DNA of 64,000 nucleotides, taken from Streptomyces sp. SCUT-3 (GTDB lineage: Bacteria; Actinomycetota; Actinomycetes; Streptomycetales; Streptomycetaceae). Positions 9,521 through 29,845 of this stretch are shown piece after piece. The position numbers were made by a program, and so were the translations under genes. The notes under the pieces are model-generated. The model worked only from the letters and a program-made list of their open reading frames with translations, was not told the origin of the DNA and made no database searches. The stretch lies in assembly GCF_014083985.1 (NCBI RefSeq), contig NZ_CP046907.1, positions 1,530,001-1,594,000 of the forward strand, in the 5' to 3' direction. Position 1 is the stretch's first letter. Each line of letters starts with the position of its first letter.

Positions 9521-10999
9521 TCAGGTGCTGGTCATGCTGCGCGCGGCGTTGTAGACGTCGAGCACCGCCAGCGCGAGGGGGATGAGGGAGAGCAGGACGG
9601 CCCCCTCGGCGAGGTCCATCATCCGGCCCCAGAAGGGGGTGACGCCCTTCTTCGGGACGATCAGGGCGACGGCCACCAGCAGGGCGGCGCCGAGGGCGAC
9701 GGCCGCGCTCAGCCACACGGTGCGGATGTCCAGCGGGGCCCCGTTCCCCTTGAGCAGCAGCTCCTTGAGGGCGTCGGCCGGCGGGTTGAGCGCCAGGCCC
9801 AGCACGAGGAGGGCGACGGTGGCCACGCCCGCACCCATCAGGCACACGACCTGGGCGGTGTAGCGGAAGAGCCGGGCGCGCATCATGGTGGCGATGCCGG
9901 CCGCGAGCGCCAGGGCCTGCGCCCAGCCGCTGTCGGAGAAGCCGAGGACGACGCCGGCCGAGCCGACGACCGCCGCGGAGCACCCGCCGACCAGGCCGAG
10001 GAGCAGCTCGTGGCCGCGGCGGGCCTGACCGGTGATCTTCTCGAAGTCGATCGGCTCCTCCTCCTCGCGCTCGCTCTCCGGGCCGCGCTGCTTGCGCGTG
10101 GAGGAGATCTGGTCCGGGGAGCGGAAGCCGATCGGCAGCCGGGCGAAGCGGGCCGACCAGCCGGGCAGGAAGGCGACGACGGCGATCGCGGTCACCGCGG
10201 TGACCGCGGCGGCCTCGCGCGGCTGCGCCTCGGAGACGATCGCCACGAAGGTGGCCAGGGTCCCGACGAAGGAGACGAAGGACGTCGCGACGAACGGCGC
10301 GTCGCCCTGCGGGAGGAGCGCGACCAGCAGCACCGAGGCGATCAGCACCACGACGCAGCCGATGAGGAAGTGCAGCCGGCCCGGCCCCTCCCCCTCCGAC
10401 AGCGGCATGACGCCGGAGCCCGCCACCAGCAGGTGGGGCAGGGCGGCCAGTCCCAGCGCCATCGCCGACCAGCGGTCGTCGTAGACCCGGGCGCGCACGC
10501 CGGACAGGGCGACCAGGACCAGGCCGGTGGCGCCGGCGATGATGCCGGGCAGTCCGTGCATGTCGTGCTTGAACGGTTCGGAGAACCACAGCACCAGGGC
10601 CATCATCGTCAGCAGCAGCACGCCGGCGGCCAGCCCGGCGGCGCGCATCAGCCCGTCGTTCCAGCTGCGCCGGTCGGTCTCGACCGCGGAGGCGACGGCG
10701 TCGACGACGTCGTCGAAGACGGCGGGCGGCAGCGAGTCGGCGAACGGCCTCATCAGGAGCAGTTCGCCGTCGAGGATGCGGTGCTCGACCAGGGACCGGC
10801 CCGGGTCGAGGACCGTGCCGTCGCGGCGGACCAGGTGGTAGCCGGTGGGCGCCCCTTCTGCCGGGGCCTGGCCCGACAGCCTCAGAATCTCCGGGTAGAC
10901 GTCCGACAGCGGCACGTCCTCAGGCAGTGCGACGTCGATTCTGCTGTCCGGCGCCGCGACCGTGACTCTGCAGAATCCGGTTGCTGAAACCGTGCTCAC
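9521..10999 (-). CDS. eccD: Type VII secretion integral membrane protein EccD
   Basis: Membrane channel component of the ESX/type VII secretion apparatus. The 492-residue protein starts with a ubiquitin-like cytosolic domain (about residues 5-90, CRVTVAAPDSRIDVALP). Eleven or so hydrophobic helices fill residues 120-490. A cytosolic charged loop near the middle contains KQRGPESEREEEEPIDFEK. The start is the GTG at 10999 (VSTVSATGFCRV), preferred over the upstream end of the frame because it begins at the conserved domain and has GGGGGAA upstream. It is divergent from eccC across a 247-bp gap that must hold both promoters; TAGGAT at 11145-11150 is a possible eccC -10. Confidence 0.93.
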   Translation of the reverse strand: MSTVSATGFCRVTVAAPDSRIDVALPEDVPLSDVYPEILRLSGQAPAEGAPTGYHLVRRDGTVLDPGRSLVEHRILDGELLLMRPFADSLPPAVFDDVVDAVASAVETDRRSWNDGLMRAAGLAAGVLLLTMMALVLWFSEPFKHDMHGLPGIIAGATGLVLVALSGVRARVYDDRWSAMALGLAALPHLLVAGSGVMPLSEGEGPGRLHFLIGCVVVLIASVLLVALLPQGDAPFVATSFVSFVGTLATFVAIVSEAQPREAAAVTAVTAIAVVAFLPGWSARFARLPIGFRSPDQISSTRKQRGPESEREEEEPIDFEKITGQARRGHELLLGLVGGCSAAVVGSAGVVLGFSDSGWAQALALAAGIATMMRARLFRYTAQVVCLMGAGVATVALLVLGLALNPPADALKELLLKGNGAPLDIRTVWLSAAVALGAALLVAVALIVPKKGVTPFWGRMMDLAEGAVLLSLIPLALAVLDVYNAARSMTST

Positions 11000-11246
11000 C
11001 TGGCGGTTCCCCCTCGTCCGGTGCTGGGTTATCGGCGCGTGGCCGCCGGATCCGTCCGGCACGCCCGCGCATCGCGATGCGCCACCTTACCGTCCTCGGC
11101 AATCCCCATCTCCCCCGCCCGGTACGCCTGTTGCCCGTGACCAGTAGGATCGGCGCCTGCCTTAGCTTCATGGGTGGCTTCTGTACGGGGGGCCGCCGCC
11201 ACGGGGGCGGTCCGAAACGCGAGTTGAGTGAAGGACTGGTGCATCG

Positions 11247-14200
11247 GTGAGCGTGGTCGTCGTCAAACGCCCGCCGCGGGTTCTCCCGCCGGACGTGCCG
11301 AGTGAGGAGGTGCGGCTGGAGGCGCCGCCGGAACTCCCGCGCGGCGAGGACCAGAACCTGCTCATGAACCTGCTGCCGATGCTCGGCATGGGATCCTCGG
11401 CGGCGTTCTTCTTCATGCCCGCCAACAACGGCAGCGGCGGCGGGTTCATGAAGGTCATGGGCGTGCTGATGCTCGCCTCCACGCTGGCGATGGTCGTCGC
11501 CCAGATCGTGCGGGCCCGCCAGGGGCCCTCGGGACAGATGGCCGAAGGGCGGCGCGACTACCTCAAGTACCTCGCGCAGGTACGGCGGCAGGTGCGGCGC
11601 ACGGCCCACAAGCAGCGCGACGCCCAGTACTACCTGCACCCGTCCCCGGAGCAGCTGTGGGCCCTGGTGGCCGAGGGCTCGCGGGTGTGGGAGCGGCGCT
11701 CCACCGACCCCGACTTCGCGCAGGTGCGCATCGGCCTGGGGCCGCAGCAGCTGGCGACCCCGCTGGTCGCCCCGGAGACCGCGCCGGTGGACGAGCTCGA
11801 GCCGCTGACCGCGCACGCGATGCAGCAGTTCCTGTCCGCGCACGGATCGCTGGACGACCTGCCGCTGGCCGTCGGGCTGCGCTCCTTCTACCACGTGACG
11901 GTCTCCGGGGACCCGGACACCGTCTACGGCACGACCCGCGCGGCCCTGGGCCAGATGTGCGCCCTGCACTCCCCCGAGGACCTGGTGGTCGCGGTCGTCG
12001 CGGCCCCCGGCGCCGCGGCCGAGTGGGAGTGGACCAAGTGGCTCCCGCACATGCAGCACAAGGAGGCCGACGGGGCGGGCTCGATGCGGCTGTTCTGCAG
12101 CGACCTGGGCGAGGTCGAGGAACTGCTGCACGACAAGCTCGACGGCCGCCCCCGGTTCAACCGGGAGGGGCAGCCGCTGCTGGACTCCCCGCACCTGGTG
12201 ATCGTGCTCGACGGCGGCAGCGTCCCTGCCGACTCGGTCATCGCCTCCGCGGAGGGCCTGCAGGGGGTGACCATCCTGGAGGTGGTGCCCGGCGAACTCG
12301 ACGAGATGCGCGGCTCGCTGTCCCTCCAGGTGTGGCCCGGCCAGCTGGAACTGGAGACCGGCTCGGGCGTGTACACCGGCGTCCCCGACACGATGTCCGC
12401 CAGCCAGGCCGAGTCGCTGGCACGCCAGCTCGCCCCGCTGCGCCTCGGCGCGGCGGACGCCGACGAGCCGCTGCTGGCCAACCTTGACTTCACCGACCTG
12501 ATGGGCATCGGCGACGCGGCCGGCGTCGACGTCTCCCGCACCTGGCGGCCCCGTTCGCTGCACGAGCGGCTGCGGGTGCCGATCGGCCTGGGCGAGACCG
12601 GCGAGCCGGTCATGCTCGACATCAAGGAGGCCTCGCAGGAGGGCATGGGCCCGCACGGCCTGTGCGTCGGCGCGACCGGCTCCGGAAAGTCCGAGCTGCT
12701 GCGCACCCTGGTGCTGGGCCTGGCCGTCACCCACTCCTCCGAGACGCTCAACTTCGTCCTGGCGGACTTCAAGGGCGGTGCGACGTTCACCGGCATGGGC
12801 AGCATGCCGCACGTCTCCGCGGTCATCACCAACCTGGCCGACGAGCTGACCCTGGTCGACCGCATGCGCGACTCGATCACCGGCGAGCTCAACCGGCGCC
12901 AGGAACTGCTGCGCCAGTCCGGCAACTACGCCAACATCACCGACTACGAGAAGGCCCGCGCGGCCGGCGCGCCGCTCGACCCGCTGCCGTCGCTCGTCCT
13001 GATCATCGACGAGTTCAGCGAGCTGCTGGCCGCCAAGCCGGACTTCATCGAGATGTTCATCCAGATCGGCCGCATCGGCCGGTCCCTGGGCGTGCACATG
13101 CTGCTGGCCTCGCAGCGCCTGGAGGAGGGCAAGCTGCGCGGCCTGGACACCTTCCTGTCCTACCGCATCGGCCTGCGGACCTTCTCCGCCGCCGAGTCGC
13201 GCACCGCCATCGGCGTGCCGGACGCCTACCACCTGCCGAACGTGCCCGGCGCCGGCTACCTCAAGTACGACACCGAGACGATGGTGCAGTTCAAGGCCGC
13301 CTACGTCTCCGGCACCTACCGCTCCTCCGGGGCGGTCGCGCCCGGCGGCGGCCGGATCGACCGGTCCCCGGTGCTGTTCACCGCCTCCCCGGTGCCGCTG
13401 CGCATCCTCGAGGAGCCGGCCCCGGGCGAGGTCTCCTCGCAGATCGACGACGCGCTCGCCGACACCGTGCTGGACGTGATCGTGCGCCGCCTGGAGGGGC
13501 AGGGCCCGCCCGCCCACCAGGTGTGGCTGCCTCCGCTGGAGGAGGCGCCCAGCATCGACCAGTTGCTGCCGCCGCTGACGGTCGACGCCGACCGGGGCCT
13601 GCACGCCGACGGCTACACCGCCACCGGCAAGCTGACCGTGCCGGTCGCCCTGGTGGACAAGCCGTTCGAGCAGCGCCGCGACGTGCTCTACAGCGACTTC
13701 TCCGGCTCCGCCGGCCACGCCCTGGTCGTGGGCGGCCCGCAGTCCGGCAAGTCCACCCTGGTCCGCACCCTGATCACCTCCTTCGCGCTCACCCACACCC
13801 CGCGCGAGGTGCAGTTCTACTGCCTGGACTTCGGCGGCGGCGGCATGCTGGCGCTGCAGAACCTGGCACACGTGGGCGGAGTCGCCTCCCGGCTGGACGG
13901 CGAGAAGGTCCGCCGCACCGTCGCCGAGGTGCACGGCATCCTCAACGCCCGCGAGGAGTTCTTCCGGGCCAACTCCGTCGACTCGATGGGCACCTTCCGC
14001 TCCCGCCGGGCCGCCGGCCACTACCCGGACCAGGCCTGGGGCGACGTCTTCCTGATCATCGACGGCTGGGCGACGTTCAAGACCGACTACGAGATGCTCG
14101 ACCCGGTCATCGCCGACATCGCCACCCGCGGCCTCGGCTTCGGCATCCACCTGATCCTGACCGCCACCCGCTACACCGAGCTCCGCCCGGCACTGAAGGA

Positions 14201-15197
14201 CCAGGTCCTGACCCGGCTGGAGCTGCGCCTGGGCGACGCGATGGAGTCCGAGTTCGACCGCAAGCGGGCCGAGAACGTGCCCGTCGGCAAGCCCGGCCGC
14301 GGCCTGTCCCCGGACAAGCTCGACTACATGGCCGCCCTGCCGAGGATCGACGGCTCCTCCAGCGCCGAGGACCTCGCCGACGGCATGGCGCAGATGGTGG
14401 CCACCGTCAACGAGAACTGGCCCGGACAGCCCGCGCCGCCGGTGCGGATGCTGCCGACCATGCTCCCGGCCTCCGAGCTGCCCGGCGGCGGGGACTTCGC
14501 CGACCGCGGCGTCGCGATCGGCGTCGACGAGCTCACCCTCTCGCCGGTGTTCGTGGACTTCGAGACCGACCCGCTGTTCGTCATCTACGGCGAGAGCGAG
14601 TCCGGCAAGTCCTCGCTGCTGCGGCTGATCGCCAAGCAGGTCTCCGAGCGCTACGAGCCGAGCAAGGCGCTGTTCGTGGTCTCCGACTTCCGGCGCGCAC
14701 TGCTGGGACAGGTCCCCGACAGCCACATGTACAAGTACTGCGCCTCGGGGCCGCAGCTGCAGGAGGTCATGGAGTCGCTCGCCGGCTCGATGAGCCGCCG
14801 CATGCCGGGGTCCGACGTCACCCCGGAGCAGCTGCGCAACCGCAGCTGGTACAACGAGCCGGACGCGTTCATCTTCATCGACGACTACGACCTGGTCGCC
14901 ACCTCCATGGGCAACCCGCTGTCGGTGCTGATGGAGTACCTGCCGTTCGCCCGCGACCTGGGCCTGCGCATCATCCTGGCGCGCAGCTCCTCCGGCGCCT
15001 CCCGCGCCTCCTTCGAGCCGGTCCTCACCCGCATCAAGGAGCTCGGCGCGCAGGGCGTGATCCTGTCCGGCGACTCCAACGAGGGCCAGCTGATGGGCAA
15101 CGTGCGGGCGTCGGCCATGCCGCCGGGACGCGGATCGTTCGTGACCCGCCGCCGCGGCGCGCAGCTGGTGCAGACCGGCTACCTGCCGGAGCGCTGA
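11247..15197 (+). CDS. eccC: Type VII secretion FtsK/SpoIIIE ATPase EccC
   Basis: The motor of the ESX apparatus, which binds Esx substrates and drives export. The 1316-residue protein is the fused EccCa-EccCb form. Two N-terminal transmembrane helices lie at about residues 38-58 and 68-90. Three ATPase domains follow, with Walker A motifs GATGSGKS (about 475), GGPQSGKS (about 829) and GESESGKS (about 1115). The first domain has a full Walker B (LVLIIDEFSELL). In the second the Walker B reads VFLIIDGWATF, with Gly in place of the catalytic Glu, and in the third FIFIDDYDLV. This fits the known pattern in which only the first ATPase is fully catalytic. GTG/ATG-type start at 11247; ends before two strong palindromes. 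Confidence 0.96.
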   Translation: MSVVVVKRPPRVLPPDVPSEEVRLEAPPELPRGEDQNLLMNLLPMLGMGSSAAFFFMPANNGSGGGFMKVMGVLMLASTLAMVVAQIVRARQGPSGQMAEGRRDYLKYLAQVRRQVRRTAHKQRDAQYYLHPSPEQLWALVAEGSRVWERRSTDPDFAQVRIGLGPQQLATPLVAPETAPVDELEPLTAHAMQQFLSAHGSLDDLPLAVGLRSFYHVTVSGDPDTVYGTTRAALGQMCALHSPEDLVVAVVAAPGAAAEWEWTKWLPHMQHKEADGAGSMRLFCSDLGEVEELLHDKLDGRPRFNREGQPLLDSPHLVIVLDGGSVPADSVIASAEGLQGVTILEVVPGELDEMRGSLSLQVWPGQLELETGSGVYTGVPDTMSASQAESLARQLAPLRLGAADADEPLLANLDFTDLMGIGDAAGVDVSRTWRPRSLHERLRVPIGLGETGEPVMLDIKEASQEGMGPHGLCVGATGSGKSELLRTLVLGLAVTHSSETLNFVLADFKGGATFTGMGSMPHVSAVITNLADELTLVDRMRDSITGELNRRQELLRQSGNYANITDYEKARAAGAPLDPLPSLVLIIDEFSELLAAKPDFIEMFIQIGRIGRSLGVHMLLASQRLEEGKLRGLDTFLSYRIGLRTFSAAESRTAIGVPDAYHLPNVPGAGYLKYDTETMVQFKAAYVSGTYRSSGAVAPGGGRIDRSPVLFTASPVPLRILEEPAPGEVSSQIDDALADTVLDVIVRRLEGQGPPAHQVWLPPLEEAPSIDQLLPPLTVDADRGLHADGYTATGKLTVPVALVDKPFEQRRDVLYSDFSGSAGHALVVGGPQSGKSTLVRTLITSFALTHTPREVQFYCLDFGGGGMLALQNLAHVGGVASRLDGEKVRRTVAEVHGILNAREEFFRANSVDSMGTFRSRRAAGHYPDQAWGDVFLIIDGWATFKTDYEMLDPVIADIATRGLGFGIHLILTATRYTELRPALKDQVLTRLELRLGDAMESEFDRKRAENVPVGKPGRGLSPDKLDYMAALPRIDGSSSAEDLADGMAQMVATVNENWPGQPAPPVRMLPTMLPASELPGGGDFADRGVAIGVDELTLSPVFVDFETDPLFVIYGESESGKSSLLRLIAKQVSERYEPSKALFVVSDFRRALLGQVPDSHMYKYCASGPQLQEVMESLAGSMSRRMPGSDVTPEQLRNRSWYNEPDAFIFIDDYDLVATSMGNPLSVLMEYLPFARDLGLRIILARSSSGASRASFEPVLTRIKELGAQGVILSGDSNEGQLMGNVRASAMPPGRGSFVTRRRGAQLVQTGYLPER

Positions 15198-15233
15198 GCA
15201 GCCCCGCGCCCGTGACATGACGTGACGTGACGA

Positions 15234-15464: not shown

Positions 15465-15529
15465 CGGGTGCACAGCCTTCCCGGATGCACCGCAGTGCGC
15501 AGTGCCCGGCGTCTTCTTCCGCGGGGTTC

Positions 15530-16444
15530 CTAGCGCGGCTCGAGGGAGGGTTCCTCTGCAGGCCGGGGCGCCTCTTCGTTGCGGTAGGAACGGTAGGCGT
15601 TGTCGTAGGCGAGGCCTGCGACGACGGCCACGCCGCACGAGACCAGGTGCGGGACGGTCTGCGGCAGGACGAGACAGCCCGCGACCCCCACGAGCACGAT
15701 CCCCGCGCACAGCAGGGCCGGGGCGCGCAGCAGCGCGGGCCACGCCCGGTGCAGGTCGATCTCCCGGACCCGGTACGCGGGATCGGTGACGGGGCGTTGC
15801 GTCCGCGGGAGGAGCGCCAGCGCCGCCGGGGTGGGCAGGAGGCCCCGCAGCAGCCATCCGCCGTCACCGATCAGCACGGCACGGACGTCCGCCCGGTTCT
15901 CGCGCAACCGCGCCTGCGGGGTGTCACCGCCGTCCGAGGGCTTCGACTCCGGCCTGCGCTTGAGGTACAGCCAGGCGTCCTCGGGACCGATCACCGCCGC
16001 CGCGGTCTCCGCCGCCGCGTACGACTCGATGACGAACGGGGCCTCTTCGCCCCACGGCGTCGCCAGTAGCAGGCAGGGGACCGTCTTCTCCGACGCGCCG
16101 CCGGATGCGGCGGACCCCGTCCCCTCGCTCCCGGCCCCCTCGCGTCCGGCCCCACCGCTCCCGGCCCCGCCGAACCGGAAACCTGTGGAGACGGCTCCGG
16201 TCCGCCCGGAGTAACCTGCTCCACCAAAGCTCCAGACTTTTTGATGCCGGGCCGTTCTCGTATCTTCTCGGCGCCCTGTAGTTGTTCCAGCAGCCTTCGC
16301 CGACGCCTCGGCGTCCCCGGCCACCTGCTCCTTGCGCTGCTCCACGGCCGGCACGGTGCGCAGTCCGGTCTCTGCCGCCTGCAAATGCGCGGAATCGGCC
16401 TCGCATCCCGAGTCCCTGGCCTGTTGCCCGAAGTCCTCCTCCAT
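15530..16444 (-). CDS. Membrane protein of unknown function in the type VII locus
   Basis: A 304-residue protein. The first 130 residues are polar and low-complexity, ending in a Gly/Ser-rich run. A folded-looking region follows (LLLATPWGEEAPFVIESYAAAETAAAVIGPEDAWLYL), and two transmembrane helices lie near the C-terminus (about 235-255 and 260-278). I recognise no family. There is no convincing ribosome-binding site for the ATG at 16444, and the true start may be internal. It lies convergent to eccC and divergent from the redox cassette, so a type VII accessory role is possible but only positional. Confidence 0.7.
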   Translation of the reverse strand: MEEDFGQQARDSGCEADSAHLQAAETGLRTVPAVEQRKEQVAGDAEASAKAAGTTTGRREDTRTARHQKVWSFGGAGYSGRTGAVSTGFRFGGAGSGGAGREGAGSEGTGSAASGGASEKTVPCLLLATPWGEEAPFVIESYAAAETAAAVIGPEDAWLYLKRRPESKPSDGGDTPQARLRENRADVRAVLIGDGGWLLRGLLPTPAALALLPRTQRPVTDPAYRVREIDLHRAWPALLRAPALLCAGIVLVGVAGCLVLPQTVPHLVSCGVAVVAGLAYDNAYRSYRNEEAPRPAEEPSLEPR

Positions 16445-16706: not shown

Positions 16707-17177
16707 ATGGCCCGCAGCCGGACTGCCCGCGCGCTGCCCGCGCCCGCGGCACGAGGGCTGCTCGTGCAGACGCTGGTACTGGCGCTGCTCGCCCTGGCCG
16801 CCTTCGCCTGCGTGCGCCTGCACCCGGGCAGCGGCAACTCCACCGGGCCGGAAGCGGCCCTGCGTGCGTCGGCGCCGGTGGCCGTGTCCCTCCAGGACCT
16901 CACCCGGACGGCGGTCGAGGCCTCAACCGAGATCCCCGCAGCGGAAGGCGTCGGCACGGAAGGCGCCGACACCCGTACGAGCGCCAACTGCTCGAAGAAG
17001 CCGGGGGCCACCGAAGGGCCCTCGAACCCGCGTTGGGCCGGATCCGACACGGCGCACCCGGCGGCCGCAGAGCCCTGTCCCTCCCGCCCCGCTCCTGTCC
17101 GGCACCACGTCACCGGGCACATCGGTCCTGCGCCCCCGGCGCCGGACCTGACCCGCCTGTCCGTTCTGCGGATCTAG
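16707..17177 (+). CDS. Single-TM exported protein of unknown function, first gene of redox cassette
   Basis: A 156-residue protein with a basic N-terminus and one hydrophobic segment (about residues 17-34, LLVQTLVLALLALAAFACV) that could be a signal anchor. A polar external part follows with two cysteines and a histidine pair (PVRHHVTGH). ATG start with GGAAGG 12 bases upstream. I do not recognise a family. It is 95 bp upstream of the CPVCNK membrane gene and in the same direction as the DsbA-like and CcdA-like genes, so it probably belongs to that unit. Confidence 0.6.
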   Translation: MARSRTARALPAPAARGLLVQTLVLALLALAAFACVRLHPGSGNSTGPEAALRASAPVAVSLQDLTRTAVEASTEIPAAEGVGTEGADTRTSANCSKKPGATEGPSNPRWAGSDTAHPAAAEPCPSRPAPVRHHVTGHIGPAPPAPDLTRLSVLRI

Positions 17178-17272
17178 CGGAGCCGCCGCGTGCCGTACCG
17201 CCCCGCAACAACCGGGTGCCCCGTACGGCGCGTGCCGGCCCGCCGACCGATCCGACAGAACAGGACTTCCCC

Positions 17273-17965
17273 ATGCCCTCTGCCGTCCCGCGCCCGCCCG
17301 GGCGTGCGCCCGGGCGGGCGGCCGCCGCCGTCCGCGGCTCCCTGCGATCCGCCGCCACCGCCCTGCGGGCGTGGCCTGCCGCCCGGTGGCTCGCCGCCGC
17401 CGGCGGGGCACTGCTGACCGCTGCGGTCGTCGGCTTCCCCACCGCGGTGATCCCCAGCCCGCTCTTCGGCCGGGAGGTCCCCGTCCAGTGGTGGAACTAC
17501 CCGGCTCTGGTCGCCACCGCCGTGCTGGGCGGCATCGTGATCGCCACCTACGTCCGCACCCCGTACACCGGAGCAGAGGCACGCTTCGACGGCGGCAACG
17601 GCGAACGCCCCGAGGGCAGCGACGGTGACGACGACGGCGACGACCGTGGCACGTCCCGCCTGGGTGCCGTCGGAGGGGTGCTGTCGTTCTTCGCCGTCGG
17701 CTGCCCGGTGTGCAACAAGGTCGTGCTGGTCCTGCTCGGCACGTCCGGGGCGATGACCGTCTGGGCCCCGGTCCAGCCGGTTATCGCGGTTGCGTCCGTG
17801 CTGTTCATGGGCGTGGCCGCCGTGCGCCGGCTGTCCGGCGAGGTCGCCTGCCCCGTACGGCCGACAGTCGCGGCGGGTACGGCGGGCACTGCGGCTCCCG
17901 CGGGAGCCCGGGGGGCGACGGAGCCGGCCGAGCCGGCGGTCGGCGTCTCCGCGACCGGCAACTGA
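17273..17965 (+). CDS. Four-TM membrane protein with CPVCNK motif
   Basis: A 230-residue protein with four predicted transmembrane helices: about 46-64 and 72-92 in the first half, then about 133-155 and 160-180. An acidic loop (EGSDGDDDGDDRG) separates the pairs. A CxxC motif (GCPVCNK) lies in the third helix, followed by a helix with GTSGAM. The layout is reminiscent of small thiol or metal-handling membrane proteins (MerT-like, DsbB-like), but no family is certain. It is followed 48 bp later by a DsbA-like protein and then a CcdA-like protein, so a role in carrying electrons or thiols across the membrane is a reasonable inference. AGGA site before the ATG. Confidence 0.8.
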   Translation: MPSAVPRPPGRAPGRAAAAVRGSLRSAATALRAWPAARWLAAAGGALLTAAVVGFPTAVIPSPLFGREVPVQWWNYPALVATAVLGGIVIATYVRTPYTGAEARFDGGNGERPEGSDGDDDGDDRGTSRLGAVGGVLSFFAVGCPVCNKVVLVLLGTSGAMTVWAPVQPVIAVASVLFMGVAAVRRLSGEVACPVRPTVAAGTAGTAAPAGARGATEPAEPAVGVSATGN

Positions 17966-18013
17966 ACCCCGCCCCACACTCTTCGTCCTCTCCGTCTCTT
18001 CAGGAGCATTCCC

Positions 18014-18814
18014 ATGCCCAGCAACACCTCCGCCGACAGGACCAGCAGGAGGCGGGGCATCGCCGCCGCCGCAGCCGTCCTCGTCGTCGCCCTTGTCCTC
18101 GGTGTCGTCTCCGCCGTGGCCACCGCGAACAAGGACACGTCCGGTGCCTCCGGCGGGCCGGCCGCCACCGTCGCCACTCCCGAAGCCCAGCCGCCCTCCG
18201 AGCAGGACGCCGAACTGCTCGCCCTGGCCCGTCGCGACGCCGATGACCCGCACGCCGTGGGACGCGCGGACGCGCCCGTGGTGATGATCGAGTACTCCGA
18301 CTTCCAGTGCCCGTTCTGCGGGAAGTTCGCCCGGGACACCAAGCCCGAGCTGATGAAGTACGTCGAGGACGGCACCCTGCGCATCGAATGGCGCCACTTC
18401 CCCCTCTTCGGCGAGGAGTCCGAGAACGCCGCACGCGCGGGGTACGCCGCCGCTCAGCAGGACCGGTTCTGGCAGTTCCACGACGTCGTCTACTCCGAGG
18501 AGCGCAAGCGCAACAGCGGGGTGTTCGCCCCCGGCAAGGTAGAGAAGATGGCCCGGGAGGCGGGCGTCCCCGACATCGACCGCTTCTGTGCCGACATGAA
18601 GAGCAAGAAGGCGGGCGCGTTCGTCACCGCTGACTCCGAGGAGGGTTACCGCCTCGGAGTGACCAGCACCCCCGCGTTCCTGGTCAACTCGCAGCCCATC
18701 CTCGGCTCGCAGCCCCTGGAGACCTTCGAGGCCGCCATCGAGTCCGCTGCCAAGGCGGCTCAGGGGTCCGGGAAGGCAGCGGGCAAGGACACCGGCGAGG
18801 AGGCGGCCGAGTGA
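18014..18814 (+). CDS. DsbA-like membrane-anchored thioredoxin
   Basis: A 266-residue extracytoplasmic thiol oxidoreductase. One N-terminal membrane anchor (about residues 17-40) precedes a thioredoxin-fold DsbA domain. The active site is FQCPFCGKF (about residue 97), and the cis-proline loop reads GVTSTPAFLVN. It would form or rearrange disulfide bonds in exported proteins. ATG start with AGGAG eight bases upstream. Its stop overlaps the GTG start of the CcdA-like gene by four bases, so the pair is translationally coupled, as expected for a thioredoxin and the membrane protein that supplies it with electrons. Confidence 0.93.
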   Translation: MPSNTSADRTSRRRGIAAAAAVLVVALVLGVVSAVATANKDTSGASGGPAATVATPEAQPPSEQDAELLALARRDADDPHAVGRADAPVVMIEYSDFQCPFCGKFARDTKPELMKYVEDGTLRIEWRHFPLFGEESENAARAGYAAAQQDRFWQFHDVVYSEERKRNSGVFAPGKVEKMAREAGVPDIDRFCADMKSKKAGAFVTADSEEGYRLGVTSTPAFLVNSQPILGSQPLETFEAAIESAAKAAQGSGKAAGKDTGEEAAE

Positions 18815-19740
18815 CCGACATCGGCTACCTCGCCGCATTCCTCGGCGGGCTGCTCGCGCTCCTCAGCCCGTGCAGTGCGCTGCTCCTGCCCGCCTTCTTC
18901 GCCTACTCGTTCAGCTCCCCGGCACGGCTCCTGGGTCGCACCGTCTTCTTCTACGCCGGACTGTGCACGACCCTGGTGCCCCTGGGCGCGGCCGGTTCGT
19001 TCGCCGGACGGCTGTTCTACGGCAACCGCGACCTGCTGGTGGCCGTCGGCGGCTGGACGGTCGTCGCGCTGGGCATCCTCCAGATACTGGGGCTCGGCTT
19101 CGGCTCGCGCCGCATGCAGGAGGCGGCCTCCCGGATCAGGCCCTCGTCGGCGTGGTCGGTCTACGCACTCGGCGCGGTCTACGGGCTGGCCGGATTCTGC
19201 GCCGGCCCCGTCCTCGGCAGCGTGCTGACCGTGGCCGCCGTCGGCGGCAACCCCTGGTACGGGGGCGCGCTGCTGGCCGTGTACGCCCTGGGAATGGCCT
19301 TCCCGATGTTCCTGCTCGCGCTGGTCTGGGACCGTTTCCGCCTGGGGAGCAGGCGCTGGCTGCGCGGCCGGGGGTTCCAGGCGGGACCGCTGCGACTGCA
19401 CACCACCTCCCTGCTGTCCGGTGCTTTCTTCGTCCTCCTCGGCGTGATGTTCCTGGTCTTCGACGGAACCTCCGCGCTGCCGGGAGTGATGGGTGTGGAC
19501 ACCGAGTACGCGGTCGAACGGTGGGTGAGGACGGCAGCCTCAGGCGTCTCCGACACCGCGGTGCTGCTCACCGTGGCGGGCGCGGCGGCGCTCGCCGTCG
19601 CACTGCTCGCTCTCCGTCCCCACCGGTCCGCACCCGACTCGGGCGGAGACAAGGACGGGACAGCGGTCAAGAACTGTCCCGAGGAAACCTCCGGGGCGGC
19701 CGGAACGATCGCGAGGGACGGGGCCGCCGATCACGCCTGA
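18811..19740 (+). CDS. CcdA/DsbD-like transmembrane electron carrier
   Basis: A 309-residue CcdA-family membrane protein, which normally passes reducing electrons from cytoplasmic thioredoxin to an extracytoplasmic partner. Six hydrophobic helices are visible. The two paired cysteines sit in the family positions, LSPCSALLLPAFF in the first helix and GFCAGPVLGS in the fourth. A polar tail carries another Cys. It starts with GTG overlapping the DsbA-like stop (GTGA). It ends 288 bp before the convergent mycosin; a hairpin lies in that gap. Presence of both partner genes makes a dedicated thiol-redox pathway likely. Confidence 0.92.
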   Translation: MTDIGYLAAFLGGLLALLSPCSALLLPAFFAYSFSSPARLLGRTVFFYAGLCTTLVPLGAAGSFAGRLFYGNRDLLVAVGGWTVVALGILQILGLGFGSRRMQEAASRIRPSSAWSVYALGAVYGLAGFCAGPVLGSVLTVAAVGGNPWYGGALLAVYALGMAFPMFLLALVWDRFRLGSRRWLRGRGFQAGPLRLHTTSLLSGAFFVLLGVMFLVFDGTSALPGVMGVDTEYAVERWVRTAASGVSDTAVLLTVAGAAALAVALLALRPHRSAPDSGGDKDGTAVKNCPEETSGAAGTIARDGAADHA

Positions 19741-20027: not shown

Positions 20028-21341
20028 CTACGGACCCCAGGGGCCGGACGGCTGGTTCTGGTTCGGTCCCTGCGGCTGGGGCGGGAACCCGCCCGCGTTC
20101 CCGGGGGGCATCGGCTGACCGTACGGAGGCTGCTGTGCCTGAGGCCCTTCTCCCCAGCCGACTCCGACCGGGGCACTCCTCTTCTTGCGCCGGGAAGACC
20201 TGACAACCGCGAACACGGTCACGCCGACGACCAGCAGCAGGAAAACAGGCGCGACCACGAACACCAGGATCCGTTTCAGGGTGTTGCTGGAGTCCGTTCC
20301 GGACCCGGATCCGGCCTCGACCTCGGCCTCGGCCTCCGGGGAAGAAGAGTCCAAAGAATCCGGAACCTTGAGCGGTCCGTACTTCGAGCCCGCCGGGATA
20401 TTTTCCGTCAATGCAGCCAACGGTCGGATATACCCGTAACCGTACTTCTCATCTGGGAGAGAGAGGCCTTTCGTCGACTCCGGAAGACCAGCAGTCTTCA
20501 CCAGTCGATTCACCACCTGGCCTGCGGTCAGGTCAGGATACTCGGCACGAACCAATGCAGCAGCAGCAGAGGTATAGGCCGCCGAACTTGAGGTTCCATT
20601 GCCCTTGTGATAGTAAGCCCCAGGAGAATTCCCTCCAGCGGAAACAATCCCAACACCAGGAGCAGTCAGCAAAACTTCTGGACCGTAGTTGGAGTCTTCC
20701 CAAATTTCACCCCTCTCCCCAACCGCGCCAATGGTCAAAACGCCCGGATACTTACCCGGATAGCCAATCAATCCAGGCTCTCCATCGTTCCCGCTGGCAT
20801 TGATCACCAAGACGTCTTTTTTCAAAGCATAAGCGACGGCCTCTTCCTCCTCTTGCGTCTTCCCCGAGCCCCCCAAGGAAATATTGATCACGGAAGCCCC
20901 TTGATCCACTGCATAAATAATGGGATCCGCCAGGTTTCCCGATGCCTTTATTCTGACTGGTAGGATTTTTGCCTTCGGCGCAAGTCCCCTAACTCCATCA
21001 CCACCCCCCAGGCCGTGTCCATGAGCTGCAATAATTGAAGCCATTCCCGTTCCGTGTGATTCGCCCTGCTCAGGATCGACCGATCCACCGTCAACAAAAT
21101 CTTTTCCCTCAAGGAGACTTTGTGAAATATCCTGATGATTTACTTCAAATCCGATATCAATTACAGCTACCGTGACCCCCTCTCCTTGCGAGATCTCCCA
21201 CACCTTCTCCGCCTGGAAGTGATCCAACGCCCATTGATCTTGCCTTACTCTGTCCGCGCTCGCAGGAGCAGTCGAAGCAAGAAGTAGCGCTCCCGACAGG
21301 GTCGCACTGCTTACAATGCGCACCGTTCGCAAAAGATTCAT
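20028..21341 (-). CDS. Mycosin-type subtilisin protease, copy 1 (type VII secretion)
   Basis: A 437-residue S8 serine protease anchored in the membrane. It has a signal peptide (residues 1-29, ending ASA), then the triad: Asp in VAVIDIGFEVN, His in ESHGTGMAS, oxyanion Asn in INASGNDG and Ser in GTSSSAAYTSA. A C-terminal transmembrane helix (about residues 365-388) is followed by a basic stretch and a Pro/Gly/Gln-rich cytosolic tail of about 45 residues ending GPWGP, which is unusual for mycosins. The ATG at 21341 has GGAAAGG eight bases upstream; the frame upstream of it is not needed. GC content is clearly lower than in its neighbours. It is closely related to the broken copy at 22085-23397. 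Confidence 0.9.
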   Translation of the reverse strand: MNLLRTVRIVSSATLSGALLLASTAPASADRVRQDQWALDHFQAEKVWEISQGEGVTVAVIDIGFEVNHQDISQSLLEGKDFVDGGSVDPEQGESHGTGMASIIAAHGHGLGGGDGVRGLAPKAKILPVRIKASGNLADPIIYAVDQGASVINISLGGSGKTQEEEEAVAYALKKDVLVINASGNDGEPGLIGYPGKYPGVLTIGAVGERGEIWEDSNYGPEVLLTAPGVGIVSAGGNSPGAYYHKGNGTSSSAAYTSAAAALVRAEYPDLTAGQVVNRLVKTAGLPESTKGLSLPDEKYGYGYIRPLAALTENIPAGSKYGPLKVPDSLDSSSPEAEAEVEAGSGSGTDSSNTLKRILVFVVAPVFLLLVVGVTVFAVVRSSRRKKRSAPVGVGWGEGPQAQQPPYGQPMPPGNAGGFPPQPQGPNQNQPSGPWGP

Positions 21342-21365
21342 GACATTATCCTTTCCCAAGAAAGT

Positions 21366-21393
21366 GGGGGTGCGGCCCATACGCCACACCCCC
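21366..21393 (-). terminator. Hairpin upstream of mycosin 1
   Basis: GGGGGTG and CACCCCC arms with an imperfect centre, 25 bp before the mycosin 1 start and 28 bp after the end of the PPE-like pseudogene. It matches in position the stronger hairpin 23544-23575 of the other copy. Confidence 0.5.
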
Positions 21394-21420
21394 ATTAATT
21401 CCGTGCGGACTCTTCAGCGA

Positions 21421-22084: not shown

Positions 22085-23397
22085 CTACGGCCCCCAGGGG
22101 CCCGACGACTGGTTCTGATTTGATCCCTGCTGCTGGGGCGGGAACCCGCCCGTGTTCCCGGGAGGCACCGCCTGGCCGTACGGCGATGGCTGCCCCTGCT
22201 GGCTCCCATGCCAGCCGCTTTCGGTCTGCGTTCTGTTATTTTTCCGACGAAAAATCCTGACAATCACGAAGACGATCGTTACGACGACCAACAGCAGGAA
22301 GACCGGTGCAACCACGAACACCAGGATTCGCTTCAAAGTGTTGTTGGACCCTGCCCCCGAATCAGAACCGCTGTCACCTCCGGATCCGGATTCCGGAGAA
22401 GACGACTGCAGTGACTCCGGCACCTTCAACGGCCCATACTTCGAACCGGCCGGGATATTCTCGGTCAACGCAGCCAGCGGCCGAATATAACCGTAACCAT
22501 ACTTTTCGTCCGGGAGGGAGGTACCCTTCGCCGAATCCGGAAGTCCAGCAGTCTTGGTCAATCGATTCACAACCTGTCCTGCGGTCAGGTCAGGATATTT
22601 AGCGCGGATCAGTGCAGCAGCGGCGGAGACATGAGCCGCAGAACTGGACGTGCCGTCAGATACGTGATAGGCAGATCCGGAATTCCCAGCCTTGGGTGTG
22701 AGAATTCCAACCCCAGGAGCAGTCAACATCACCTCTGAGCCGTAATTTGATTTACTCCAAATTTCCCCCTCCTCGTCAACTGCGCCAACCGTCAGAACAC
22801 CCGGATACCAACCCGGGTAGCCAATGCTTCCAGATTCTCCCTCGTTGCCGCTGGCAGTCACCACCAACACATCTTTCTCAAGCGCGTAAGCCATGGCTTC
22901 AGCATCTTGGGAACTTCCCCTGGAAGACCATACCGAAATATTGATCACGGAAGCCCCCTGATCAACCGCGTAGTAGATTGAATCCGCCCACCCCGAAGAA
23001 AGATCGCTACGGATAGGTAGAATTTTGCTTTTGGTGCGAGCCCTTTGACTCCGTCTCTTCCCTGCGACCCATGGCCGTGTGCCGCAATAATGGAGGCCAT
23101 GTCAGTTCCGTGGACATCACCCTCCGCAGGGTCCACAGAACCTCCATCGACAAAATCCTTACCCTTCAACAGATTTTCGCGAAGGTCTTGGTTCTTCGTG
23201 TCGAACCCGTCATCGATGACAGCTACCGTCACACCTTCACCCTGTGAAATCTCCCAAATTTTTTCCGCTTCCAATTTTTCTAGTACCCACTGGTTCTGCC
23301 TCACCAGGTCTGCCGCAGCGGAAGGCGCCGCGAGAAAAATCAAAGAGCCTGCCAAGAACGCGCTACCCGCAGAACGAAGCGATCGACCGAAGGTCAT
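22085..23397 (-). pseudogene. Mycosin-type protease, copy 2, frameshifted
   Basis: Two abutting frames, 23397-22945 (signal peptide, Asp motif VAVIDDGFD, His motif DVHGTDMAS) and 22948-22085 (Asn, Ser motif GTSSSAAHVSA, transmembrane helix, Pro/Gly/Gln tail ending GPWGP), together make one protein homologous end to end to mycosin 1. The join is a one-base loss in an A-run (minus strand AAAATT, 23020-23025). Restoring one A gives the mycosin 1-like reading KAKILPIR. All catalytic residues are otherwise intact, so the defect is recent or a sequencing error. GC content is low, like copy 1. About 200 bp separate it from the PPE-like gene upstream. Confidence 0.85.
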
Positions 23398-25145: not shown

Positions 25146-25466
25146 TCAGCTCTGCTTCTGCGAGAGCGCGGCCTGGATCTCGTAGTCGCTCTCCTCGTAC
25201 GCGTTCTTGGTGCTGACCGTCTTCTGGCCGAACTTGTCCATGACGTCGTCGAGGTGGTCGATGATCGCCTCGATCTGGTCCTTCATCGACACGTGGGCCG
25301 TCTCCAGGTTCCTCGCCTCGGCGAAGCCGGTGCCCAGGGCGCCGGGGGGAAGGTACGTCTCGGACTTGGCCTTGCCCTTGGTGTCCTGCACGTCCTTGAG
25401 GACGCCGTTCAGTTTCTTGACGACGCTGTCGAGTTCGCTCAGGTCGACACGGTACTGATCAGCCAT
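25146..25466 (-). CDS. Small Esx/PE-like protein lacking WXG
   Basis: A 106-residue, mostly helical protein of WXG100 size. The central turn reads LGTGF where WXG would be, but the C-terminus has NAYEESDYE, a match to the YxxxD/E export signal of type VII substrates. The start ATG overlaps the end of the mycosin gene upstream by eight bases, so it is translationally coupled to it, and the PPE-like gene follows 39 bp later. The pairing suggests it is the signal-bearing partner of the PPE-like protein. Function beyond that is unknown. Confidence 0.85.
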   Translation of the reverse strand: MADQYRVDLSELDSVVKKLNGVLKDVQDTKGKAKSETYLPPGALGTGFAEARNLETAHVSMKDQIEAIIDHLDDVMDKFGQKTVSTKNAYEESDYEIQAALSQKQS

Positions 25467-26790
25467 GCCTGGCCTCCCCGTTCATTCGTGTTCCGTTCTT
25501 CCTCCGCCAGTCGCGCAGGACGATCGATCCGCCGGCGAGGAGGGCGACGGCGGCCAGGCCGCCGCCCACGGCGTAGACCGCCATGCGTTCGGTGCGCTCC
25601 TGCGGGCTCTCGCCGAGGACGATCGCCGCGGGCTGGATGTCGGTGCCGCTGCCCGGTGCGGCAACCGGCTTCTCGACGGGTTCCTGGCCGGGCTCCGTGT
25701 CGTCCTCGGTGAGTGCCGCGACCGGGTCCACGACGCCCCAGCCGACGAAGCGGTCCTTGCCGACCTGCGGACGCTCGGCGGTCTGCAGGATTTGGGTGAT
25801 GACCTGCTGGTAGTTCCAGTCGGGGTGCTTGGCGCGGATCAGAGCCGCGACGCCTGCGACGTACGGGGCGGAGAAACTGGTGCCGTTGTCGAGGCAGTGC
25901 CCGCCCTTGGGGACGGTCGAGACCATGTCGACGCCCGGGGCCGCGACGTCGATGAAGGAGCCCGGCTGGGAGAAGGGGGCGCGTTCGTTGTTGCGGTCCG
26001 AGGCGGCCACGGCCAGCACTCCCTCGTAGGAGGCCGGGTAGGTCTCCTTCTCCTTGCCGCTCGCGCCGTCGTTGCCGGCGGAGGCGACGATGAGGACGTC
26101 CTTCGCCTGCGCGTTCCTGACGGCCTGGGCCAGGACGGATCCGCTGCTCAGCTTCGAGGCCGAGTCCTGGGAGACGTTGATGACCTTGGCCCCCGCGGCC
26201 ACCGCGTGGTCGATGGCCTTCGCCATCGTCAGGACCGTTCCACTGCCGTTGTTGTCGTTCTGGCGGATCGGGATGATCGTGGCGCCGGGCGCGATCCCCA
26301 CGAAGCCGGTGGTGGAGGGGGACGGGCGGGCGGCGATGATGCCCGCCACCTTGGTCCCGTGGCCCACCAGGTCGGTCGTCTCGTCGCCCTCGCTCTTGCC
26401 CTTGAGGAAGTCGGCGCCGGCGCCGCGGTCGAGGGCCTGGGCGAGCTGCGGGTGGTCGTCGTCCACACCCGTGTCGATGACGGCAACCTTCACCCCGCGG
26501 CCGGTGGTGTCCTGCCACATCTGGTCGAGCAGGACCCTCTGCAGCGACCAGGGGGTTCCCTTGATGGGGTCGGAAGGGAAGGTGCACTGGGTGTTGTCGA
26601 TCTTCACGCCGCCGTCTTCGCCGTCCTCGGCGAGGACCGTCCCCGTTGCTCCCGTGCCCCGGCCCGGCCCTGGTCCGGGTACGGCCGCCGTGTTCGCCGC
26701 GGCCGGCACGGCGGCGGCGAACAGGCCGAGAGCGGCGAGCGCGGCCGCCGTCGAACGCCCGGCGGTGTACCTCACGACGCGCGGTCCCAC
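25459..26790 (-). CDS. mycP: Type VII secretion-associated serine protease mycosin
   Basis: A 443-residue subtilisin-type protease of the ESX apparatus, which is membrane-anchored and needed for complex stability in mycobacteria. A signal peptide covers residues 1-32 (ending AAANT). The triad is intact: Asp in VAVIDTGVDDDHPQ, His in VGHGTKVAGI, Asn in VASAGNDG and Ser in GTSFSAPYVAGVAAL. A C-terminal transmembrane helix (about 408-430) is followed by a short basic tail. The GTG at 26790 (VGPRVVRYTAG) has GGAGGA eight bases upstream and starts at the signal peptide; 55 further codons upstream are not supported. GC content is normal, unlike copies 1 and 2, so this is probably the ancestral locus mycosin. 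Confidence 0.93.
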   Translation of the reverse strand: MGPRVVRYTAGRSTAAALAALGLFAAAVPAAANTAAVPGPGPGRGTGATGTVLAEDGEDGGVKIDNTQCTFPSDPIKGTPWSLQRVLLDQMWQDTTGRGVKVAVIDTGVDDDHPQLAQALDRGAGADFLKGKSEGDETTDLVGHGTKVAGIIAARPSPSTTGFVGIAPGATIIPIRQNDNNGSGTVLTMAKAIDHAVAAGAKVINVSQDSASKLSSGSVLAQAVRNAQAKDVLIVASAGNDGASGKEKETYPASYEGVLAVAASDRNNERAPFSQPGSFIDVAAPGVDMVSTVPKGGHCLDNGTSFSAPYVAGVAALIRAKHPDWNYQQVITQILQTAERPQVGKDRFVGWGVVDPVAALTEDDTEPGQEPVEKPVAAPGSGTDIQPAAIVLGESPQERTERMAVYAVGGGLAAVALLAGGSIVLRDWRRKNGTRMNGEARHG

Positions 26791-26937
26791 AGGATTCGCT
26801 CCTCCCCCACGGAGTGGGCGTTGTGACAGTTGGTGCGTTTTTGCGTGCTGCGGTGCGGCGGGCGGCCCGCCGGGGCGGATGTGATCACGCGCTCCGGCCG
26901 GCCGTCCGTCCGGTCCGACGGCTCCGGAACGGCCGAC

Positions 26938-26963
26938 GAGGGCGGGTGCACGCACCCGCCCTC
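26938..26963 (-). terminator. Hairpin after esxA
   Basis: Perfect 12-bp arms (26938-26949, 26952-26963) around two bases, 34 bp past the esxA stop. It likely terminates the esxBA transcript and gives high levels of the small secreted proteins. Confidence 0.75.
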
Positions 26964-26996: not shown

Positions 26997-27287
26997 TCAG
27001 CCCCACATCGCCTTGTTGCGCGACTCGGTGGCCTGGTAGCTCTGCGCGGCCTGGTCGAGCGCCTTGGCGATCTGCTCCAGGGTCTGCTGCATCGACAGCG
27101 CCCGCTTGTCCCACTCGGCCTGCTTGGCCCGGTAGCTCTCCTGCGCGGAGCCCTCCCAGGTCGTGGCGATCTTCTTGACGCCGGCCTCGAGGTCGTCGAG
27201 CTGGTTCTTGATGCTGCTCGCCGTCTGCCGCACGTCGTTGGCGGCAGTGGAGATCGTGGAGAAATTGACGAGGATCTGCCCGGACAT
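26997..27287 (-). CDS. esxA: WXG100 family type VII substrate EsxA-like
   Basis: A 96-residue helix-turn-helix protein with the central WXG motif (TTWEGSAQESY, about residue 43). A YxxxE export signal sits near the C-terminus (SYQATESRN). Such proteins form dimers with their partner and are exported by EccC. It follows the other WXG100 gene by 63 bp, with a TGAGGAG site before its ATG. In Streptomyces EsxA and EsxB are the main known substrates of this system and affect sporulation. Assignment of A versus B here is by order and length only. Confidence 0.92.
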   Translation of the reverse strand: MSGQILVNFSTISTAANDVRQTASSIKNQLDDLEAGVKKIATTWEGSAQESYRAKQAEWDKRALSMQQTLEQIAKALDQAAQSYQATESRNKAMWG

Positions 27288-27350: not shown

Positions 27351-27671
27351 TCACCCGAACGGCGACGCCGCCGCGATGTTGTTGATCGCCGACTGCTGCT
27401 CGGCCTCGGACGCCGCGTAGTTCTTCGTCGTGGCGTCGATCGTTTCCTTGATGTCCAGCAGGATGTCGTTGATCTTGTTCGCGTCCTGGTTGACCTGGTT
27501 CTGAAGGTTGTTGTAGGCGGTGGCCGCCGAACCCTTCCAGCCCCCGGTGATCGTGTCGATCACCGTCTGCAGGCGCTTGATCTGACCCTGGATCGAGGAG
27601 TTGACCGACTGGATCCGGTTGCTGAAAGCAACCATCTCCTCCTCGGTCATCGTGAACTGCTGTCCGGCCAT
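27351..27671 (-). CDS. esxB: WXG100 family type VII substrate EsxB-like
   Basis: A 106-residue helical protein with a central WXG motif (GGWKGSAATAY, about residue 45). A YxxxE signal (NYAASEAEQQ) lies near the end. It is the first gene of the esxBA pair and has a good upstream promoter at 27767-27795. The pair is the likely heterodimeric substrate of the EccC motor. Confidence 0.92.
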   Translation of the reverse strand: MAGQQFTMTEEEMVAFSNRIQSVNSSIQGQIKRLQTVIDTITGGWKGSAATAYNNLQNQVNQDANKINDILLDIKETIDATTKNYAASEAEQQSAINNIAAASPFG

Positions 27672-28126: not shown

Positions 28127-29647
28127 TCAGGAGTTCTGCGGCTGCTTGGCGCTGTCGGTGTCCAGCTTCGGCCCCCTGGAGAGCAGTTCGGACCACACCT
28201 TGGGCACCGGAACCAGGCGGGTCTTCTCGTACCCGAGCCGGACCTGCGCCTCCCTCGTCTTGTCGTCGGCCTTGCCCGCGCCGCCGGCCTTGCTGTCGCC
28301 GTTGTTCGGCACCGAGTAGCGCAGACCGGTGTCCGTCACCAGGAAGACCAGGCCGACGTTCGGGTCCGAGCCGGTCACCTGCCGGAACAGCAGGCCGCTG
28401 CCGGGGGAGACGTAGGTGCTGTTGCCGCTCTGCACGACGTCCTCGGGGTAGTCCCGGCCGGCCCAGACGCTCATGAGGGGCCGCTTGGTCAGGGAGTTGT
28501 TCTCACCGTGGTAGACGCTGCAGGAGACCTTGCGCCCGTCCTCCTTGGTGACGTTGTTCGCCTGGACGACGGCCGGCTCGGGCCAGTCGACGTCGTCGAG
28601 GAAGGGTTCTCCCGGAGTGATGTCCTGGGCCGCGACCTTCACCGGCCTGGGGACCTGGCCGGAATAGAGCTCTTCCGTCTGCGGGCTGCCCAGGAGCAGC
28701 TGGGCGGTGAAGTCCGACACCGGCGCGACCCGGTCCTTGAGCACCACGTACTTGTGCGTCTTCGAGCCGGAGGGCGCCTCGAGCACCAGGCCGACCTTGG
28801 CGTACTCGGGGGCGAGGTTCGGCGCGTTCGACGTCTCGTTGGCGCCGTCGACCGGCGGGAAGTCGATGGGGAGGCCGGGGTTGAGGGTGCTCAGCCATTT
28901 GGCGGACACCGACTGCGGCTGGGCGCCCTCCTCGAAGACGACGCGGCGCAGCAGGTTCATGAACTTCGAGGACTGGTCCCGGCCCAGCCTGTGGGCCGTC
29001 CCCTTGGAGTCCACGAGGTACTCGGCGCCGTCCGGGCCCTTGACGAACAGGGCCTCGCGGTCGGTGAGGCTGTTCTTGTTCTTGACGACGAGCTTGCTGT
29101 CCTTCTCGTTGAGGACGAAGAGGGCCTTCTGGCTCTTCTGCCGGCCCTCGCCGCCCATCTGCTCGCACAGTGCCCAGTACTTGCGGGTCTCGGCGTCCTT
29201 GGCGTCCGGGAGCCGGTCGGGGGCGTAGGGGATCCCGATGGTGGCGCCGACCTTGATGCCGCTCTTGTCCAGTTCGGACTCGTTGACCTTGATGACGTCG
29301 AACTTGGACGGGTCGAGCAGGAGTTTGGCCGAGGCCAGGTTGAGCACCGGGTGGAGCTGCTTCTTGCCCTTGCCGCTCTTGAGGACCACGTAACGGGTGG
29401 TCGACTCGCTGCCGACGATGACCTTCGCGTTGGGGGTGTCCCAGCCCTTGGGCGCGCCGGGCTTGATCATTCCCCACGCGCCGAATCCGACGAGGACCAG
29501 CGTGCCGACGACGAGGCTGGGCATGACCGCCTTCAGCGGCCTCGGGGCGCCCTCCTCGGAACCGTGCGGGGACGGCTGCAGGAACGCGGCCACCGTGCGC
29601 CTGCGCGCGAAGGTGTATGCGTTGAGCTCATCCCTACGTGTTGCCAT
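28127..29647 (-). CDS. eccB: Type VII secretion protein EccB
   Basis: A 506-residue extracytoplasmic component of the ESX membrane complex. The canonical N-terminus MATRRDELNAYTFARRR is present. One transmembrane helix follows (about residues 43-62) and then a large external repeat domain with KVNESELDKSGIKVGATIGIPYAPD. ATG at 29647 gives the family N-terminus. It is divergent from eccE, 198 bp apart, a gap that should hold both promoters. Confidence 0.95.
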   Translation of the reverse strand: MATRRDELNAYTFARRRTVAAFLQPSPHGSEEGAPRPLKAVMPSLVVGTLVLVGFGAWGMIKPGAPKGWDTPNAKVIVGSESTTRYVVLKSGKGKKQLHPVLNLASAKLLLDPSKFDVIKVNESELDKSGIKVGATIGIPYAPDRLPDAKDAETRKYWALCEQMGGEGRQKSQKALFVLNEKDSKLVVKNKNSLTDREALFVKGPDGAEYLVDSKGTAHRLGRDQSSKFMNLLRRVVFEEGAQPQSVSAKWLSTLNPGLPIDFPPVDGANETSNAPNLAPEYAKVGLVLEAPSGSKTHKYVVLKDRVAPVSDFTAQLLLGSPQTEELYSGQVPRPVKVAAQDITPGEPFLDDVDWPEPAVVQANNVTKEDGRKVSCSVYHGENNSLTKRPLMSVWAGRDYPEDVVQSGNSTYVSPGSGLLFRQVTGSDPNVGLVFLVTDTGLRYSVPNNGDSKAGGAGKADDKTREAQVRLGYEKTRLVPVPKVWSELLSRGPKLDTDSAKQPQNS

Positions 29648-29845
29648 CGACGCGTCAACTCCCCGTGTGTCGCTGTGCTGTTGTGCGGGCCCCGCCCCGA
29701 CCGCAGGGCGACCGTGGCCGCGGGGCCCCCTACTATGCCGTGTGACGATCGCACCGTACGGTACGGGGTACCGCGATCTCGCCGCCAGCCGCAGCCGACG
29801 GACTGCGCGCGGCGGACCGACAAACAAGAGGGGTTGTTCCGGGGG

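Follow-up and report, generated by a model that had tools for sequence, protein, structure and literature searches.

A four-gene thiol-redox cassette

We analysed a stretch of 64,000 nucleotides (the window) from Streptomyces sp. SCUT-3 (family Streptomycetaceae; contig NZ_CP046907.1, positions 1,530,001 to 1,594,000), whose genome is a single contig of 6,075,149 bases, and focused on four consecutive plus-strand genes, termed P1 to P4, which lie inside a type VII secretion locus. P1 (16707..17177, +) encodes a small exported or single-transmembrane protein of 156 residues with an N-terminal hydrophobic segment, three cysteines and the C-terminus VLRI. P2 (17273..17965, +) encodes a membrane protein of 230 residues with four predicted helices. 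Its CPVCNK motif (17702..17719, +), which contains Cys144 and Cys147, falls in predicted helix 3, and a third cysteine, Cys193 (17849..17851, +), follows helix 4. Searches of Pfam and NCBIfam that allowed E values up to 1 returned no match for P1 or P2. P3 (18014..18814, +) is a DsbA-like thioredoxin of 266 residues, membrane-tethered or secreted (Pfam Thioredoxin_4, 1.5e-28; DSBA, 6e-18), in which both the active-site motif CPFC (18308..18319, +) and a cis-Pro loop (TPAF) are present. P4 (18811..19740, +) starts with GTG in a four-base overlap with the stop of P3 and encodes a CcdA-like membrane electron carrier of 309 residues (Pfam DsbD_TM, 2.1e-13; 50.5 bits, above the family cut-off of 27.1). 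Reading of the open reading frames (ORFs) together with the Pfam searches confirmed the four genes, their positions, both motifs and the P3/P4 overlap, all of which the first-pass annotation of this window had pointed out.

The same four genes in the same order were also found in another genome of the host's family (G059), where P1 corresponds to an ORF of 138 residues. Because this order recurs, the gene set is more than a chance gathering, and the earlier description of a thiol-redox cassette is supported. The G+C content of the cassette (0.73) equals that of the window (0.728) and no insertion mark was recognised among the repeats around it; thus there is no sign of a recent arrival.

P1-type ORFs were found just upstream of P2 in four loci besides that of the window (L028, L009, L010 and L001). 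All of them end in VLRI as the P1 of the window does, and none of 1738 control ORFs (at least 80 residues, from 21 control loci) has this ending. The search pattern was chosen after two members were known and was not blind, although it allowed other endings and VLRI alone came out; it matched in four of the seven loci searched, with nothing in L029, L030 and L017. The P1 proteins of the window and G059 align only at short Pro/Cys-rich spots (BLAST E 0.085), so that place, layout and the C-terminus are what holds the family together. A P1 profile gave strong matches in the family sample for the host and G059 only, both of which were in the model. Three weaker matches came up in that sample (E 0.0015-0.009); one of them, in the type VII locus of genome G008, was dropped because the part matched is the signal region of a lipoprotein-like ORF, which does not end in VLRI. 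A tblastn search of plasmids with P1 returned nothing despite P1-type ORFs in two plasmid loci, and the absence of P1 by BLAST therefore means little. These two ORFs (L009:6463-6843 and L010:6443-6838), both ending in VLRI, are unannotated in their plasmid records. A simple sigma-R-like pattern had no match upstream of the five P1 genes. P1 represents a hidden family of predicted exported proteins with the C-terminus VLRI.

The P3-P4 pair has a counterpart in the literature. In Streptomyces lividans, the stop codon of the gene for Sli-DsbC overlaps the start of a ccdA homologue, according to the available part of the report (PMC6657201), and P3-P4 has the same layout of a thioredoxin gene overlapping a ccdA-type gene. 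Close relatives of P4 (64-70%, E below 1e-100) occur in eight of 100 other genomes of the host's family, all of one genus, and among these eight only G059 has P2. The other seven carry homologous P3-P4 pairs, near which no match was found to any of 24 P2 sequences or to the P1 of the window. Their P3 motifs are CGYC (six) and CSFC (one), whereas P3 near P2 has CPFC or CPYC in all 11 loci, the window included. The seven P3 proteins from P2-less genomes form one clade (99/97), so the split between CPFC and CGYC may reflect a single event. The likeness to S. lividans is one of gene layout (PMC6657201).

The P2 family and its relation to MerT

P2 belongs to an unnamed family that ranges over Actinobacteria, Thermomicrobium and haloarchaea. 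Relatives were found in six of 101 genomes of the host's family (two of the six doubtful) and in 14 of 149 genomes of the phylum, the host included in both counts, as well as in 88 plasmid records (E up to 0.01; 76 at 1e-5) and one S. halstedii contig. A scan of viral contigs gave no P2 relative. The two doubtful matches in the host's family, in G011 (E 1.4e-4) and G035 (E 5.3e-4), were partial, left the motif uncovered and were rejected as chance. Likewise, the only matches among solved structures, to a receptor at E 0.2 and worse, were taken as chance.

Twenty-four aligned members share R67, P70, A141, G143, C144, P145, C147, N148 and P166. The CPxC motif is present in all 24 and Cys193 in 23 of them. 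The reading of P2 as a four-helix protein comes from hydropathy and a low-confidence AlphaFold2 model. The charge pattern of the family places loops 1 and 3 outside and the N-terminus, loop 2 and the tail inside (N-in, C-in); thus Cys193 would lie on the inner side of the membrane.

The commonest weak match of the family was Pfam MerT (nine of 24 members, best E 5.6e-5), and the NCBIfam MerT model matched seven of 24. In hhalign, P2 matched an alignment of five MerT sequences over 65 columns with a probability of 95.5% (score 55), and the five taken singly with 89.8-95.7%; the MerT side of this comparison is thin, since the first sequence shares 87-93% identity with three of the four others. 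Among 136 membrane ORFs of control loci, each given as a single sequence, the best reached 8% (score 28). The match spans helix 3, helix 4 and Cys193 of P2, and Cys193 aligns with a loop cysteine of MerT. P2 and MerT (PF02411) share a helix hairpin whose first helix holds a cysteine pair; a GxSGA stretch, a P..P turn and a later cysteine are likewise common to both. They differ in that MerT has an adjacent Cys-Cys pair in place of CPxCN, and two later cysteines instead of one; moreover, P2 adds two predicted N-terminal helices, and the third helix of MerT lies outside the match. In the available part of the mercury transport report, Hg(II) is handed on within MerT, first bound by Cys24/25 of helix 1 and then by Cys76/82 at the cytoplasmic face (PMC5715351), a position comparable with that predicted for Cys193. 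The genomic surroundings also differ, as merA is annotated near one of the 19 plasmid P2 loci read. A search for MerT in 60 genomes of the class found none, but the controls were equally unmatched, so this is no evidence of absence.

Several observations weigh against a MerT relation. The P2 of the window has no Pfam match of its own, and among six members scanned singly, two matched MerT (PF02411) with 16.3 and 18.7 bits, below the cut-off of 32.9, whereas four had no MerT match at E 0.1. P2 lacks the adjacent cysteine pair, and the third MerT helix is not covered by the match. AlphaFold2, run on a two-row alignment (the window and L001), gave a model with a mean pLDDT of 49, too poor to test the fold. 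Nevertheless, the profile comparisons indicate that the last two helices of P2 are homologous, distantly, to the helix hairpin of MerT. The first-pass annotation had stated that P2 fits no known family and had compared its layout to MerT or DsbB. The family of P2 does match a known one, distantly. The comparison to MerT is borne out by hhalign and the weak library matches. As for DsbB, neither Pfam nor NCBIfam gave a VKOR or DsbB match to any of the 24 members at E values up to 1.

A proposed carrier and its alternatives

To describe the surroundings of P2 elsewhere, we collected 36 other P2 loci with their flanks (L001, L009-L030, L083-L095), among them 19 plasmid loci picked for variety from the 88 records. 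In 16 of these 19, all except L010, L020 and L024, metal or persulfide genes are annotated within 7-10 kb of P2, including multicopper oxidases, P-type ATPases, metal-sensitive and CopY-type regulators, rhodaneses, DsrE, TauE and DUF302 proteins; two haloarchaeal loci have two multicopper oxidases each. Among the genome loci, homologues of metal or persulfide genes occurred in 10 of 17 (E 1e-10), as opposed to four of 20 random stretches taken from nine of the same genomes and searched with the same queries. The matches in the random stretches were an MBL protein (29%), merA (34%), Lnt and a CopZ/P-ATPase pair, which leaves three if Lnt is excluded. Two of the plasmids have been described: the available part of the paper on the Arthrobacter plasmid carrying L019 describes the plasmid's sulfur module and names another for cytochrome biogenesis, and that on the S. 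mirabilis plasmid carrying L017 tests nreB, hoxN and copYZ; the P2 gene is not discussed in these parts of either paper. The haloarchaeal P2 relatives (L025:9369-10423 and L026:9369-10408), on plasmids and near the multicopper oxidases, each share a four-base overlap with a hypothetical gene of equal length in both records.

We give about an even chance to the reading that the four genes are an operon-like cassette in which an Scs-like reducing pair serves a MerT-like carrier for a thiol-loving ligand at the cell surface, most likely Cu(I), Hg(II) or another soft metal ion, or else a persulfide. P4 would draw reducing power from cytoplasmic thioredoxin and pass it across the membrane to P3; the task of P3 would be to hold the outer cysteines of P1, as well as the CPVC pair of P2, in reduced form. 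P2 could then catch the ligand with the CPVC pair of helix 3 and hand it to Cys193 on the cytoplasmic side, with P1 as a small exported partner. We infer this direction of electron flow, the ligand, all contacts among the four proteins and the role of P1. A known analogue is the ScsB-ScsC pair, a reducing DsbD-like/DsbA-like couple in copper tolerance (PMC8900818, PMC5524982), whose DsbD-like membrane member holds its thioredoxin-fold partner in the reduced state. This pair is described in Gram-negative bacteria, ScsB has extra periplasmic domains, and the available parts of the reports name no MerT-like partner (PMC8900818, PMC5524982).

The genes might instead be a loose gathering, in which a general reducing pair of the Sli-DsbC/CcdA type stands beside an unrelated small membrane protein without a joint function. 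The seven genomes that carry P3-P4 without P2 fit such a gathering and count against the proposed cassette, as do the 26 of 36 other P2 loci whose flanks lack a P3-P4 pair. The copper part of our proposal meets difficulties as well. Plasmids are expected to be rich in metal genes, and the figure of 16 in 19 is biased accordingly. Of the five loci with a P1-type ORF, only L009 has metal or persulfide neighbours, so the copper reading is drawn from more distant relatives; no such neighbours were found near L001, L028 or the cassette of the window by tblastn, nor near L010 by annotation. On the other hand, P2 lies within about 4 kb of homologues of both P3 and P4 in 10 of the 36 other loci, which come from several actinobacterial genera and vary in gene order and orientation, and a P1-type ORF accompanies P2 in five loci. 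In three further loci (L020, L025 and L026), either P3 or P4 has a distant homologue near P2. We therefore consider a loose gathering unlikely, though it deserves to be taken seriously.

An oxidative pathway seems to us distinctly improbable. It would have P2, as a DsbB- or VKOR-like protein, re-oxidise P3 for the folding of exported proteins in general, with P4 as a balance. The four predicted helices of P2 with CPxC in a helix agree with it, and so does the CPFC motif of P3, which is closer to that of an oxidising DsbA than the CGYC of the P2-less relatives. DsbB and VKOR are, however, defined by two cysteine pairs, whereas P2 has one CxxC and one tail cysteine, and VKOR and DsbB found no match in a family that does match MerT. 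DsbD, in turn, is a reducing carrier. The CcdA homologue next to Sli-DsbC has a function related to DsbD, as the available part of the source puts it (PMC6657201), which speaks against the oxidative reading. In addition, the host carries a VKOR elsewhere (5.32 Mb) and another DsbD_TM gene (3.29 Mb), and probably does not need the cassette for forming disulfides in general or for assembling cytochromes.

The type VII locus and the meaning of the cassette

The placement of the cassette inside a type VII secretion locus, as first annotated, was confirmed by the surrounding genes. Upstream lie EccD (9521..11062, -; Pfam EccD, 9.2e-93) and EccC (11247..15197, +; Pfam FtsK_SpoIIIE, 2.2e-75). Downstream, a mycosin-type subtilase without cysteine is nearest to the cassette (20028..21395, -; Pfam Peptidase_S8, 6.6e-45), followed by a second (22085..23397, -) in two overlapping pieces, a third (25459..26955, -), two WXG100 proteins (26997..27287 and 27351..27671, -) and EccB (28127..30874, -).

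All 21 genomes searched, that of the host among them, have EccC homologues; the match was at E 0 in 19, and only weaker ones were found in G007 and G010. From the 20 other genomes we took 13 equivalent type VII loci, two of which (L063 and L064) are cut by contig ends; the genome collection compared has no other member of the host's genus. A tblastn search with the proteins of the window (E up to 1e-6) detected EccC, EccD and a mycosin in all 13 loci and P1 to P4 in none of them. Conversely, type VII genes were detected in none of the 36 other P2 loci (E 1e-6 in L001 and L009-L030, 23 loci, and 1e-4 in the 13 others), although several flanks are short (L091 and L095 below 7 kb in total) and divergent type VII proteins of distant lineages could escape queries taken from the window. 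The annotation of the 19 plasmid loci lists no type VII product either. In G059, the cassette at 5.19 Mb and eccC at 3.65 Mb are about 1.5 Mb apart on a single contig, and G054 and G093, both draft genomes, have the P2 gene on one contig and their best eccC on another.

The type VII proteins themselves were compared by the cysteines in their aligned parts. The nearest mycosin has none in the window and one to three in the relatives, the third mycosin has one to two and one to three, respectively, and both Esx proteins have none. The cysteine count of EccB is equal or within one in nine of ten relatives, with 4 versus 11 in L062. In these counts, which cover two of the three mycosins, both Esx proteins and EccB, there is no sign of added disulfides in the type VII proteins. 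That the cassette is a disulfide or thiol pathway dedicated to type VII secretion, as the first-pass annotation had proposed from the position between eccC and the mycosins, is highly improbable. In favour of it stand this position and the disulfides of mycosins and EccB3 described for mycobacteria in the available part of PMC12421883. Against it, the neighbourhood comparison places the cassette away from type VII loci, the distance in G059 is large, cysteine is absent from the nearest mycosin and from both Esx proteins, and the third mycosin and EccB have counts near those of most relatives. The first-pass annotation is thus supported in the thiol-redox cassette and in its guess of a carrier comparable to MerT, but not in a service to secretion. 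Both outcomes that it had named as refuting its proposal were observed: the cassette occurs away from type VII loci, and the P2 family has a distant match to a family of metal transporters. Found within a type VII locus in the host genome only, among the loci compared, the cassette looks not to serve the secretion machine, and its placement looks accidental.

The locus shows some further features. The two pieces of the split mycosin (22945-23397 and 22085-22948, -) match consecutive parts of the Peptidase_S8 profile and may represent a broken gene or a sequencing error. Between 20028 and 26955 (-), the three mycosin-type genes alternate with two related copies of a WXG100-edged protein of 497 residues, as if tandem-duplicated. 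An ORF of 280 residues directly after eccC (15227-16069, +) has no Pfam match, and tblastn did not detect it in any of the 13 equivalent loci. In G008, two ORFs of 147 and 778 residues that resemble type VII cargo lie between eccC and a mycosin (L053:10006-12808), which suggests a variable cargo slot at this place.

We found no paper mentioning the word CPVCNK, and the searches combining type VII with DsbA, CcdA with DsbA and copper, MerT with CcdA, and type VII with disulfide gave no title on such a cassette among the matches listed. Our results remove a tempting but unsupported tie of type VII export to oxidative folding. It is replaced by a testable subject: an unnamed, MerT-related family with CPxCN, which frequently has a DsbA/CcdA couple as its neighbour and lies in islands of copper or persulfide genes. 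In our reading, the four genes form a travelling thiol-handling cassette whose membrane protein P2 is distantly related to MerT. Going further, we suggest tentatively, as a possibility that we hold to be rather less than even, that P2 founds an undescribed family of MerT-related carriers in Actinobacteria and haloarchaea, whose redox-active CPxCN would be reduced by the CcdA-DsbA couple and which would move Cu(I) or sulfane sulfur as redox-powered carriers, not as passive mercury carriers. If the carrier idea is true, it would join Scs-type reducing pairs with Mer-type thiol relays in Actinobacteria and archaea.

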